Shown here piece by piece: positions 24,175-27,133 of a stretch of DNA of 44,234 bases. The DNA lies in contig JADGQB010000006.1 of the NCBI GenBank assembly GCA_017882145.1, forward strand, positions 1 to 44,234, read 5' to 3'. A model generated the notes under the pieces. The model was not told where the DNA came from. It saw only the letters and a list, made by a program, of their open reading frames with translations, and ran no database searches. Made by a program: the position numbers and the translations under genes. Each line of letters starts with the position of its first letter. Position 1 is the stretch's first letter. The stretch is from Anaerolineales bacterium. Its GTDB lineage: Bacteria; Chloroflexota; Anaerolineae; Anaerolineales; Villigracilaceae.

Positions 24175-24738
24175 TTATTCCAGACGATCCTTCAACTCAG
24201 ATTCAAGGAATTCGACCGCCTCGTTCACATCCAGGTCAAAAGGAGTGGGCTGCCTGCGCATAAAGGGCAGCGCAGGCAGCGGGAAATCAACGAACGACTT
24301 TTCGAGGCCGGCCTGCAAATAGGTCTGAAGCTCTTCCGGTGGAACCCGGCCGCGCTTTCCCAGGCGGATATCCATTTCACGCTTGAGCTTGGCCAGGCGA
24401 TTGGCGATCATCCATTTATAGTAATTCCCCTTGCCGGTCTTCGAGATCCAACCGGACAGGCTCTCCACCGGACCCAGATCAGGTTTGGGCGGTTCGTCAT
24501 ATCTCCGGCCGCCGGAATACCAGTTTAACAGGCTGGTGCTGGCGATCAGAACCAGGCCTGCCAGCAGCACGATCCACAAGAGCAATTGAGGAATTGCGGC
24601 ATAAAACAGATTCAACACCCACCACAAGTAAGCCAAGGGGGTGATGACAGTCCGGCGGATGACATCCTGCAGGAAAAAAGCCAGGATTACCGCAACCACC
24701 AGCCCGGCTGCAGCAAGCAGAAGGTGGCGGCGTTTCAT
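24175..24738 (-). CDS. Membrane protein of the DUF4129/MoxR operon
   Basis: 187 residues: two hydrophobic helices (about 5-25 and 48-70) and a soluble C-terminal part with a basic segment ending in a charged helix (NEAVEFLESELKDRLE). Its ATG overlaps the stop of the DUF4129 gene as ATGA (24735-24738), so the two are made together. I do not recognise the family; position suggests a structural part of the complex served by MoxR. Confidence 0.75.
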   Translation of the reverse strand: MKRRHLLLAAAGLVVAVILAFFLQDVIRRTVITPLAYLWWVLNLFYAAIPQLLLWIVLLAGLVLIASTSLLNWYSGGRRYDEPPKPDLGPVESLSGWISKTGKGNYYKWMIANRLAKLKREMDIRLGKRGRVPPEELQTYLQAGLEKSFVDFPLPALPFMRRQPTPFDLDVNEAVEFLESELKDRLE

Positions 24739-25625
24739 CTATCCACCCCACAGGCCTGCAGGACCACTGTCAGGCAGGCAACCGCTTCAGCCGTCTCCTC
24801 GTGATTGGCCTGCCCGGTCCCATAGCGGGCAGCTTCGAACAGGCGTGTCAGCCTCCGGACAGCCTCAGCCGGTAAACCGGCGGTTTCCAGGCGGGAAGCG
24901 AATTCGCTGGCGGTTAAGTCCATGCGGCGCTGCAGGCCGTGCCGGTAACTAACCACTTCGCTCATGCGCGCATAGGCTTTTATGATGGTGTTCTCCCAAT
25001 CCTGACCGGAGGAGATATCCGCCAGGCTGCTGCGGGCGATCTCCGCCAGGTTCTCCAAAGGTTGGGAGTCCCGGTTCATTCGCTGCCTGCGCAGCCACCA
25101 GCGTCCGGTCAGGAAAAGGATGGCTGCCAGCACCAGCACCACCCCCAGGCTGACCAGGTAGAGCAGCGAGTTGGGAACCTGCGGTGGGTTGAAGACCTCT
25201 GGCGCAGATTCCGCCCCGGGCGGGGTATTTGCATTGGACCCGACCGACCCGACCAGGTCGAGCCCCGCAAATAAATTGCGAAAATTATTAAGGAGATAAA
25301 AAAGGGCCAGGACGAACAAGGCAAAGCGCAGGAAGTACAGGATAATGCGTTTGCGCAATTCAGGCGAAAAGAATGAGGCCACGATGACGATTAATATAAA
25401 AACCAGGCTCCAGAATATGAGCTGCTTCCAAAGTGGGATATCGGCGATCTGTGCGGCGATCTTCTCGACAGAGACCTGGATGGTGGTGGATTCTCCGCGC
25501 GCAAGCGGGCGGCCAGGCTGGAAATGGATATTCCCCAGCCCCATCGCCAGGACCACCAGCATCAGCACGGCAAAGGCTGCCAGAAAGATTACCCAATTCT
25601 TGTGGGCGAAAAATCTCTTTAACAT
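24735..25625 (-). CDS. Membrane protein with C-terminal DUF4129 domain
   Basis: 296 residues. Hydrophobic segments lie near 12-30, 67-87, 94-112 and 155-175. The soluble C-terminus (about 205-296) has the DUF4129 pattern: WENTIIKAYARMSEVVSYRHGLQRR, then LTASEFASRL and VRRLTRLFEAARYGTGQA. DUF4129 commonly occurs with MoxR, DUF58 and a transglutaminase-like protein. This is the first gene of the operon. A TACAAT box lies 9 nt before the ATG with no ribosome binding site, suggesting a leaderless transcript. Confidence 0.88.
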   Translation of the reverse strand: MLKRFFAHKNWVIFLAAFAVLMLVVLAMGLGNIHFQPGRPLARGESTTIQVSVEKIAAQIADIPLWKQLIFWSLVFILIVIVASFFSPELRKRIILYFLRFALFVLALFYLLNNFRNLFAGLDLVGSVGSNANTPPGAESAPEVFNPPQVPNSLLYLVSLGVVLVLAAILFLTGRWWLRRQRMNRDSQPLENLAEIARSSLADISSGQDWENTIIKAYARMSEVVSYRHGLQRRMDLTASEFASRLETAGLPAEAVRRLTRLFEAARYGTGQANHEETAEAVACLTVVLQACGVDR

Positions 25626-25634
25626 GGCGCAGGA

Positions 25635-25640
25635 ATTGTA
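25635..25640 (-). promoter_or_regulatory. -10 element of the DUF4129-MoxR-DUF58 operon (possible leaderless promoter)
   Basis: TACAAT on the minus strand ends 9 nt before the ATG at 25625. The gap contains no purine-rich binding site. No good -35 is seen at 16-18 nt spacing. Confidence 0.45.
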
Positions 25641-25791
25641 CCAGAATCCTAATTAAGATAAGAATGGTACTCTATGGGGTGAATAGTGCTTTCCTGGAGT
25701 TGCAGCTGAAAGGATTTTAACCATGAAGTTGCAAAGAAGGTAAAGAATTCCAAGCCGCTGCCCATTTGGGATGATCAACAAATTGATAGCT

Positions 25792-26157
25792 CTATTGCAC
25801 CTGGTTACGCTGACTAAGTTTTTCGCGTTCATGCTCCCAAATCTCTACAAGTTTTCTGAAATAGCCGGCGATCAATTCCAACTCTTTTTCGGAATAGCTC
25901 GAATTCAAGGTGTCTATGGCCTGCCTGCCAGAAGCGAAAATGGCGCCCACTTCCGCGGTCCTTTCATCAGTCAGAACAATTAATGTGCCGCGCCGGTCTT
26001 GTGGATTGGGGCGGCGCTCAATCAAATGGGCTTTCTCAAGCCGGTCAAGCATGGCTGTAGTGGCGCCGGAGGTCAGGCCGGTATAGCGGGCCAGTTCCGA
26101 GGGGGTGGCCAGCCCCTTGAAAAAGATGAGCGCCAGGCATTCCATATCGGTGACATT
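25792..26157 (-). pseudogene. MarR-family regulator, 5'-truncated
   Basis: The visible frame encodes the winged helix of a MarR protein: VTDMECLALI, then ATPSELARYTGLTSGATTAMLDRLEKAHLIERRPNPQDRRGTLIVLTDE (wing and DxRRG), and the dimerisation helix to the stop. The N-terminal helix and dimer segment of about 40 residues are absent. In-frame sequence upstream of 26157 no longer matches MarR and contains no ATG; the first usable ATG is 26145, within the remaining fold. The neighbouring VOC gene on the other strand is truncated at the same point. I therefore read it as a remnant, although a short protein from 26145 cannot be excluded. Confidence 0.72.
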
Positions 26158-26418
26158 GACGTACCAGCCGGCAGCCGATGGATATCCATGGAGTTCCCGG
26201 GTGGCGGCACATCCATAAATCTCACCAACGTATATGAAAACATGCAGCCGGGAACCATGAAGCTGTACCTTTCAACTCCGGATATTGAAGCAGCATACAA
26301 GGAATTGAAATCCAAAGGCGTCAAGCCAACGCATGAGATTACACGTGCCGGCTGGGGAACATCTTTTGATTTTCGTGACCCGGATGGCAACCAGTGGCTG
26401 GTTGTGCAGGCAAAGTAA
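26158..26418 (+). pseudogene. VOC (glyoxalase/bleomycin-resistance fold) protein, 5'-truncated
   Basis: The C-terminal part of a VOC protein is clear: DVPAGSRWISMEFPGGGTSINL, then GTMKLYLSTPDIEAAYKELKSKGV, and the closing SFDFRDPDGNQWLVVQ with the usual metal/edge DPDGN turn. About 45 N-terminal residues, including the first beta-alpha-beta-beta unit, are missing; the frame upstream (from 25999) reads the antisense of the MarR gene. The first internal ATG is 26188, with no binding site. A complete VOC protein of this type has about 125 residues. Confidence 0.72.
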
Positions 26419-26553
26419 GTTCAGTGCTCTTTCCTTAACAAAACCCAAACAAAATTGTCAGACAAAAGTAGGGCAGTCGTTGAGCAGACGTCAAGCAAAT
26501 TTTAGGCAAAATGATAAGATATTGGTGTTTGACAATTTCTTAACCCTTCTTTT

Positions 26554-26587
26554 CAAGCGAGCCAGGAGCGGAGTCCTGGCTCGCTTG
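26554..26587. repeat. Perfect 14-bp inverted repeat
   Basis: CAAGCGAGCCAGGA and TCCTGGCTCGCTTG flank a 6-nt loop GCGGAG. This GC-rich hairpin lies alone in the 295-bp spacer between the VOC remnant and the DUF309 gene. No T-run follows on either strand, so it is not a standard terminator. The rest of the spacer holds no recognised gene. Confidence 0.75.
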
Positions 26588-26697
26588 ATTCTCTGCTGAT
26601 TTAACAGAATGGTATCAAGATGGATGCCGGCTGGCCAAATCCGCTTGCGACTTCATCCATTTATGACACAAAAATGGGTCAGGGAGAACAGAAATGA

Positions 26698-26703
26698 TAT
26701 AAT
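26698..26703 (+). promoter_or_regulatory. -10 element of the DUF309-fabL operon (possible leaderless promoter)
   Basis: TATAAT, then 10 nt without a ribosome binding site, then ATG at 26714. No convincing -35 is seen. The same layout occurs at two other loci in this window. Confidence 0.45.
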
Positions 26704-26713
26704 TTCACCCACC

Positions 26714-27133
26714 ATGTCCGATTTGAACACACCAGATTCTTCCAACTGCCGCGGAGCGCTCCATCCAAAAGCCATCGAGGGGATGGAGTTGTTCAACGCC
26801 GGTCATTACTTCGAGGCGCACGAGGCGCTGGAGGCCGCCTGGCGGGATGAAACCGGGCCGGTTCGGGACCTTTATCGCGGCATCCTGCAGGTGGGGGTCA
26901 CCTACCTGCACATCCGTCGGCACAACTACGATGGGGCGATCAAGGTCTACCAGCGCAGTCTTAAATGGCTGCGACTGTGGCCGGATACCTGCCGGGGTGT
27001 GGCAGTCGGACAGCTGAAGAGCGACCTGGAGGCGGCCATCGGAGCAGTAAAAAAGCTGGGGCCGGAGCGTATCGCCGAATTTGATATATCTCTGCTGAAG
27101 CCGGTGTTGTATTCCATAAGCGAAATCCAATGA
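26714..27133 (+). CDS. DUF309-domain protein
   Basis: 139 residues. The DUF309 signature is intact: GMELFNAGHYFEAHEALEAAWRDETGPVRDLYRGILQVGVTYLHI (about residues 22-67), with the HEALExxW and the YRGILQ helices that form the fold. A second helical pair follows. The function of DUF309 is unknown. Its stop overlaps the fabL start as ATGA, so it is co-translated with an enoyl-ACP reductase, which hints at a link with lipid metabolism. I take ATG 26714; the longer frame from 26609 has no support. Confidence 0.88.
   Translation: MSDLNTPDSSNCRGALHPKAIEGMELFNAGHYFEAHEALEAAWRDETGPVRDLYRGILQVGVTYLHIRRHNYDGAIKVYQRSLKWLRLWPDTCRGVAVGQLKSDLEAAIGAVKKLGPERIAEFDISLLKPVLYSISEIQ

Follow-up and report, generated by a model that had tools for sequence, protein, structure and literature searches.

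A probable deletion scar joining the 3' remains of divergent marR and VOC genes, beside a candidate small RNA element, in an Anaerolineales genome

How did a MarR-type regulator gene and a VOC gene on opposite strands come to lose their beginnings at one and the same place? The question is raised by a locus in the window, that is, the whole stretch of 44,234 nucleotides of an Anaerolineales bacterium that was analysed here. The two genes and their meeting point are the following.

25792..26157, minus strand: 3' part of marR, about 121 codons and the stop, missing 37 codons at the 5' end, the start codon and the promoter
26158..26418, plus strand: 3' part of a VOC gene (glyoxalase/bleomycin-resistance fold), 86 codons and the stop, without the first 33-41 codons and start
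26155..26179, no strand: junction, the proposed deletion scar, with about 0.3 kb gone if the parent was like three intact marR-VOC loci

The scar is present in the assembly. An earlier note on this DNA had placed the switch from minus-strand MarR to plus-strand VOC homology near 26158, and this proved accurate, the MarR homology ending at 26157-26160 and the VOC homology beginning at 26158-26179. The note had also stated that 40-50 residues were missing from both N-termini; both proteins are indeed truncated, but this figure was too high, the measured losses being 37 residues for MarR and 33-41 for VOC. The homologies themselves are not due to chance (best matches in other genomes 6.5e-45 for the MarR fragment and 5.4e-28 for VOC). 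Residue 37 of a full-length MarR from the same family aligns at window base 26160, and in the intact MarR of locus L128 37 residues stand before the first one kept in the window, which amounts to 37 of about 158. For VOC, residues 39-42 of the relatives align at window bases 26170-26179, and a MAFFT alignment would place residue 34 at 26158 if the first weakly similar residues are counted; the window protein thus lacks 33-41 of about 123 residues. In accordance with these positions, the MarR frame from its internal ATG (25792-26145) matches PF01047 at 7.2e-13 over profile positions 7-58 of 59, compared with 2-58, covered by residues 38-94, in an intact relative, so that the protein keeps almost all of its winged-helix domain and has lost what precedes it. 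This N-terminal region ahead of the winged helix has a role in MarR dimerization. The VOC fragment matches PF00903 at 6.5e-13 over profile positions 35-119 of 121, where an intact relative covers 2-119, and the domain is incomplete.

Neither remnant carries a stop or a frameshift, and therefore either the loss happened recently or the frames are still under constraint. The first marR start codon after the preceding stop is the internal ATG at 26145, before which we saw by eye no Shine-Dalgarno-like sequence. The VOC frame is open through the antisense marR to a TTG at 25999, giving an ORF of 139 codons, and its codons at 26098-26187 include no ATG, GTG or TTG ahead of an internal ATG at 26188. 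No promoter of the kind scanned was found within 150 bp on either side of the junction; over 25600-26750 the consensus promoter scan gave one weak site far to the left, not above shuffles. Operator patterns were no commoner in the window than in shuffles, and none lay at the junction. The MarR remnant thus has its PF01047 domain without the N-terminal region and without a start, ribosome site, promoter or operator of its own. Because neither remnant has a good start or promoter, and because MarR has lost the region before the winged helix, both are probably pseudogenes. Short proteins might nevertheless be made from both remnants, the compact form being a working one; both frames are open and MarR keeps 40 of 45 near-invariant positions. 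We consider this highly improbable given the missing promoter, starts and N-terminal region, and given that the five changed positions (5/45) are the most among 54 MarR rows. Such counts have to be read with care as a sign of relaxed constraint after truncation: the MarR and VOC counts are high, but intact relatives come close (L128 with 4/45 is next for MarR; for VOC, 3/17 changed in the window is approached by 3/15 in intact L111 and 3/16 in intact L036). Truncation relative to homologues is a standard mark of bacterial pseudogenes (PMC11078800), and the marR and VOC remnants, both shorter than their intact relatives and lacking the 5' part, share this mark with 5'-truncated pseudogenes described in bacteria. 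The difference is that one event appears to break two genes here, and that ours are putative pseudogenes.

The arrangement from which the remnants derive was sought among relatives. In the family (152 genomes), the MarR fragment had 53 matching places at E <=1e-20, the window among them, spread over 51 genomes, and the other 52 together with two order-level loci (L009, L012) made up a partner census of 54 loci. The nearest recognised divergent gene was DUF1801-like at 50 loci and VOC at 3, with none recognised at 1; the census recognises only genes in its query set, which was extended by the VOC of L128 once that locus had been read, and the DUF1801-like query itself scores below the Pfam cut-off. 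The three VOC-facing loci, L002 (contig 330 of the same genome), L011 (same genus) and L128 (same family), are the relatives with intact divergent marR-VOC genes for which the earlier note had advised a search, and their marR and VOC genes stand 85-89 bp apart from start to start. At the one locus with no recognised divergent partner, L170 (G470:C44, in another genome), MarR is also N-truncated, matching from residue 60; neither the trees nor the counts of upstream motifs include it.

The intact loci indicate what may have stood between the two genes. All 53 loci with a complete N-terminus have AAGATACT in the 130 bp ahead of marR, and 51 of them have it within 110 bp; among random 110-bp pieces of the same loci, searched on either strand, it occurs in 35 of 1060, a control that may include the upstream regions themselves. 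A promoter-like TTGACA-N17-TATCTT directed toward the divergent gene is found at 48/53 loci, including all three VOC-linked ones, which also carry TTGTAA or TTGAAA-N17-TATAAT toward marR. The upstream sequence may be the operator of this MarR. No palindrome of 16-20 bp was common to the nine intact loci examined, and a palindromic operator was set aside. At the DUF1801-linked loci (L006, L007 and others) the conserved upstream sequence is usually shared with the DUF1801-like gene; in the part of the literature that our search covered, no paper combined marR and DUF1801. Divergent pairs of a marR gene and its target sharing an intergenic operator are known, for example hucR-uricase (PMC5487221). 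The parent we propose would resemble this type in having a regulator and an enzyme-like gene in divergent orientation, 84-88 bp apart, with overlapping promoter-like sequences; it differs in that the window is without the shared region and both 5' ends, and in that the operator here is putative.

Does the window MarR belong with the VOC-linked loci? A maximum-likelihood tree was built from 57 rows, namely 53 relatives, the window and 3 outgroups. In it the window MarR falls together with the three VOC-linked rows and no others (support 95/94). The same split was recovered in 988/1000 bootstrap trees without the outgroup and in 987/1000 without the outgroup and L128, a run for which the program warns that long branches meet. 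The grouping does join long branches, and of the marR rows that belong to the group of interest, the window has the longest end branch (0.62). Against a VOC-linked origin, the highest raw identity of the window MarR is to a DUF1801-linked protein (L119, 67%), and the rows nearest to it by path length are also DUF1801-linked, the latter because the VOC-linked branches are long. Intact divergent marR-VOC pairs that group with the window marR are thus found at 3 of 54 loci. Their VOC proteins belong to other subfamilies than that of the window, with 28% (L011 copy) and 33% (L128) identity to it; a pair with the same VOC subfamily, and with it the exact parent pair, is absent among the loci examined.

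The parent may also have been larger, with the order marR, DUF1801-like gene and VOC, the DUF1801-like gene having been lost in the same deletion. Consistent with this are the predominance of DUF1801-like partners (50/54) and locus L163, where a weakly similar VOC (25% identity) lies about 0.8 kb from marR, past the DUF1801-like gene. We regard it as unlikely, since the relatives with which the window MarR groups are the three loci that have VOC directly beside marR.

The distribution of the VOC subfamily bears on another explanation, namely that the two genes were never partners and that illegitimate recombination joined their 3' ends during or after insertion. At 1e-15 the subfamily occurs in 15 of 400 sampled genomes of the phylum, the window's own included, and 12 of the other 14 belong to one distant family other than that of the window. 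When the DNA surrounding 26 VOC-relative loci was searched at E 1e-6, this MarR was absent. Moreover, the own genome holds a second 5'-truncated VOC of the subfamily, C295 (L220:1492-1692), which has 66 codons, covers only positions 68-121 of the PF00903 profile and sits inside its contig; in the ORF facing it, Pfam recognised no partner. The explanation is nonetheless quite unlikely, as it needs a coincidence to produce both the orientation seen in the three intact marR-VOC loci and the MarR grouping. Two more VOC relatives were detected in the own genome at E <=1, C112 (L052/L221) with a TAG stop within the match and C124 with an open frame. Since the intact VOC partners are of other subfamilies and the VOC relatives lack this MarR, the partner of the MarR lineage seems to change. 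This suggests a lineage that swaps partners, mostly DUF1801-like and, in a small group, VOC of different subfamilies, with the upstream sequence conserved.

The surroundings of the two remnants add a further layer, which the earlier note had missed, as the region between the flanking genes looks like an insert.

24735..25625, minus strand: left flank gene, DUF4129 (Pfam profile match; relatives)
26714..27133, plus strand: right flank gene, DUF309 (Pfam profile match; relatives)
25650..26690, no strand: approximate extent of the insert, from flank comparison in four relatives, with ends placed by eye
25661..25669, plus strand: 9-bp direct repeat AGAATGGTA, copy 1, near an insert end; weak
26606..26614, plus strand: 9-bp direct repeat AGAATGGTA, copy 2, near an insert end; weak
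26449..26592, plus strand: noncoding element conserved across the family, here in a decayed copy (candidate small RNA gene and promoter region), from DNA and model matches
26553..26588, plus strand: hairpin of the noncoding element, 15/15 pairs, including some in which both bases differ from other copies

In four genomes of the same family (G014, G015, G016 and G019) the DUF4129 and DUF309 genes stand next to each other in divergent orientation, their matched parts 59-160 bp apart, and the piece carrying marR and VOC is an insert relative to these genomes because 1,089 bp separate the same genes in the window. The flank genes were each searched in 36 other genomes, of which 9 carry both. In G009 and G017 a single contig carries the two, about 3.4-3.5 kb from each other, and in G006, G012 and G045 they are on separate contigs. 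That they adjoin in only 4 of these 9 genomes, and do not do so in G006 and G009 of the same genus, counts against a model of insertion followed by deletion. The G+C content is 0.43 at both insert ends (25650-25949 and 26400-26699), which is also below most surrounding genes, compared with 0.57 in the middle (25950-26249). As a target-site duplication there was just the 9-bp repeat, which was equalled in 15 of 500 shuffles and was set aside. A plasmid collection searched with the DNA of the region gave no match. Among 10 other genomes of the genus, DNA matches were limited to the element at 26449-26592 and a short stretch of DUF309, the marR and VOC parts being unmatched outside the own genome. 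All three recognised parts of the insert (marR, VOC and the noncoding element) look decayed.

As this is a draft assembly of 448 contigs, 86.75% complete, it might be asked whether the locus is complete in the genome itself and about 0.3 kb was dropped during assembly. A DNA search of the own genome with 25650-26620 returned the region itself and, beyond it, nothing but a marR paralogue (66%) and two copies of the 26449-26592 element (71%). Among matches up to E 1, no other part of the assembly supplied the missing 5' half of marR or of VOC. A collapse driven by repeats is unlikely because no near-identical second copy and no separate 5' halves were found. Moreover, both insert ends join flanks that are neighbours in the four relatives. 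Taken together, we judge an assembly collapse very unlikely.

The reading that we favour, and consider likely, is that of an insert-borne marR-VOC pair hit by one deletion of about 0.3 kb, with both remnants now probably pseudogenes. An acquired or duplicated divergent marR-VOC pair would have sat in the insert between the DUF4129 and DUF309 genes; a single internal deletion would then have taken 37 marR codons, the shared promoter/operator and 33-41 VOC codons, fusing the remains head to head. The size is the sum of what would be missing if the parent was like the intact loci: 111 bp from marR, 99-123 bp from VOC and an intergenic stretch of about 86 bp. That one deletion struck a divergent marR-VOC pair was already the proposal of the earlier note, and it is supported by the three intact pairs, by the MarR grouping and by the promoter/operator-like sequence that is absent here. 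The scar is an ordinary case of gene decay. It offers a testable case in which one small event would have disabled a regulator along with its likely target and the promoter they shared, and in which intact relatives show what was lost.

Wider interest attaches to the conserved element beside the scar, which is the more novel of the two. Its canonical form, of which L003:1501-1646 is a copy, was matched in 134 of 152 genomes of the family and in 85 of the 88 of good quality, with at least 1-6 matches per genome, a lower bound because the search scored few candidates in each. An alignment of 21 copies contains repeats of the type GCGTAGGGnAA, a TAATAT box, a pyrimidine core and the hairpin; in canonical copies the upstream repeats are phased at 11 bp and the box is -10-like. 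The core, GAUUUCUCUUCUCCUCCUUU, is nearly invariant, and its 20-nt form GATTTCTCTTCTCCTCCTTT is exact in 40/40 loci (L179-L218), a count that is not independent, since one place was fetched twice, 15 loci built the model and 20 were found by it. In the copy at C434 (L004) one core base is absent. The copy in the window differs at 7 of 20 core positions and scores 42 bits, compared with up to 103 elsewhere. In the predicted fold, 5 of 16 pairs are changed on both sides, all of them in the hairpin. A second predicted helix of 5 pairs, between part of the core and AGGxGA just before it, shows no pair altered on both sides, and most of it is disrupted in the copy of the window.

When the model was run with strict filters against 400 genomes of the phylum, the element turned up in 41: 25 from the family (the own genome included), 10 more from the order and 6 more from the class, with no match outside the class. 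No Rfam family matched at the gathering thresholds, and up to E 1 no Rfam match overlapped the element in six canonical loci; the literature within reach of our search described no small RNA for this class. The element may be transcribed, and its core may pair with ribosome sites. On balance, we lean towards 26449-26592 being a decayed copy of an undescribed, class-wide small RNA gene, which may act as a post-transcriptional regulator with a core able to pair with Shine-Dalgarno sites. If the element is a small RNA, it would count as a new family by the standard of Rfam. The AbcR RNAs of rhizobia are small RNAs with CU-rich anti-Shine-Dalgarno motifs (PMC7143759), and the element resembles them in its CTCCTCC stretch followed by a hairpin. 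It differs from them in being a candidate RNA of other sequence, from another phylum and with no Rfam match, and in that its consensus fold pairs part of the CTCCTCC stretch in a weak helix. Among the 8 copies for which neighbours were listed, that of L003 is followed downstream by two genes assigned by Pfam to the HD-domain and prephenate dehydrogenase types, and similar ORFs were recognised by eye after the element at L144 (both), L148 (HD-domain type) and L145 (prephenate dehydrogenase type).
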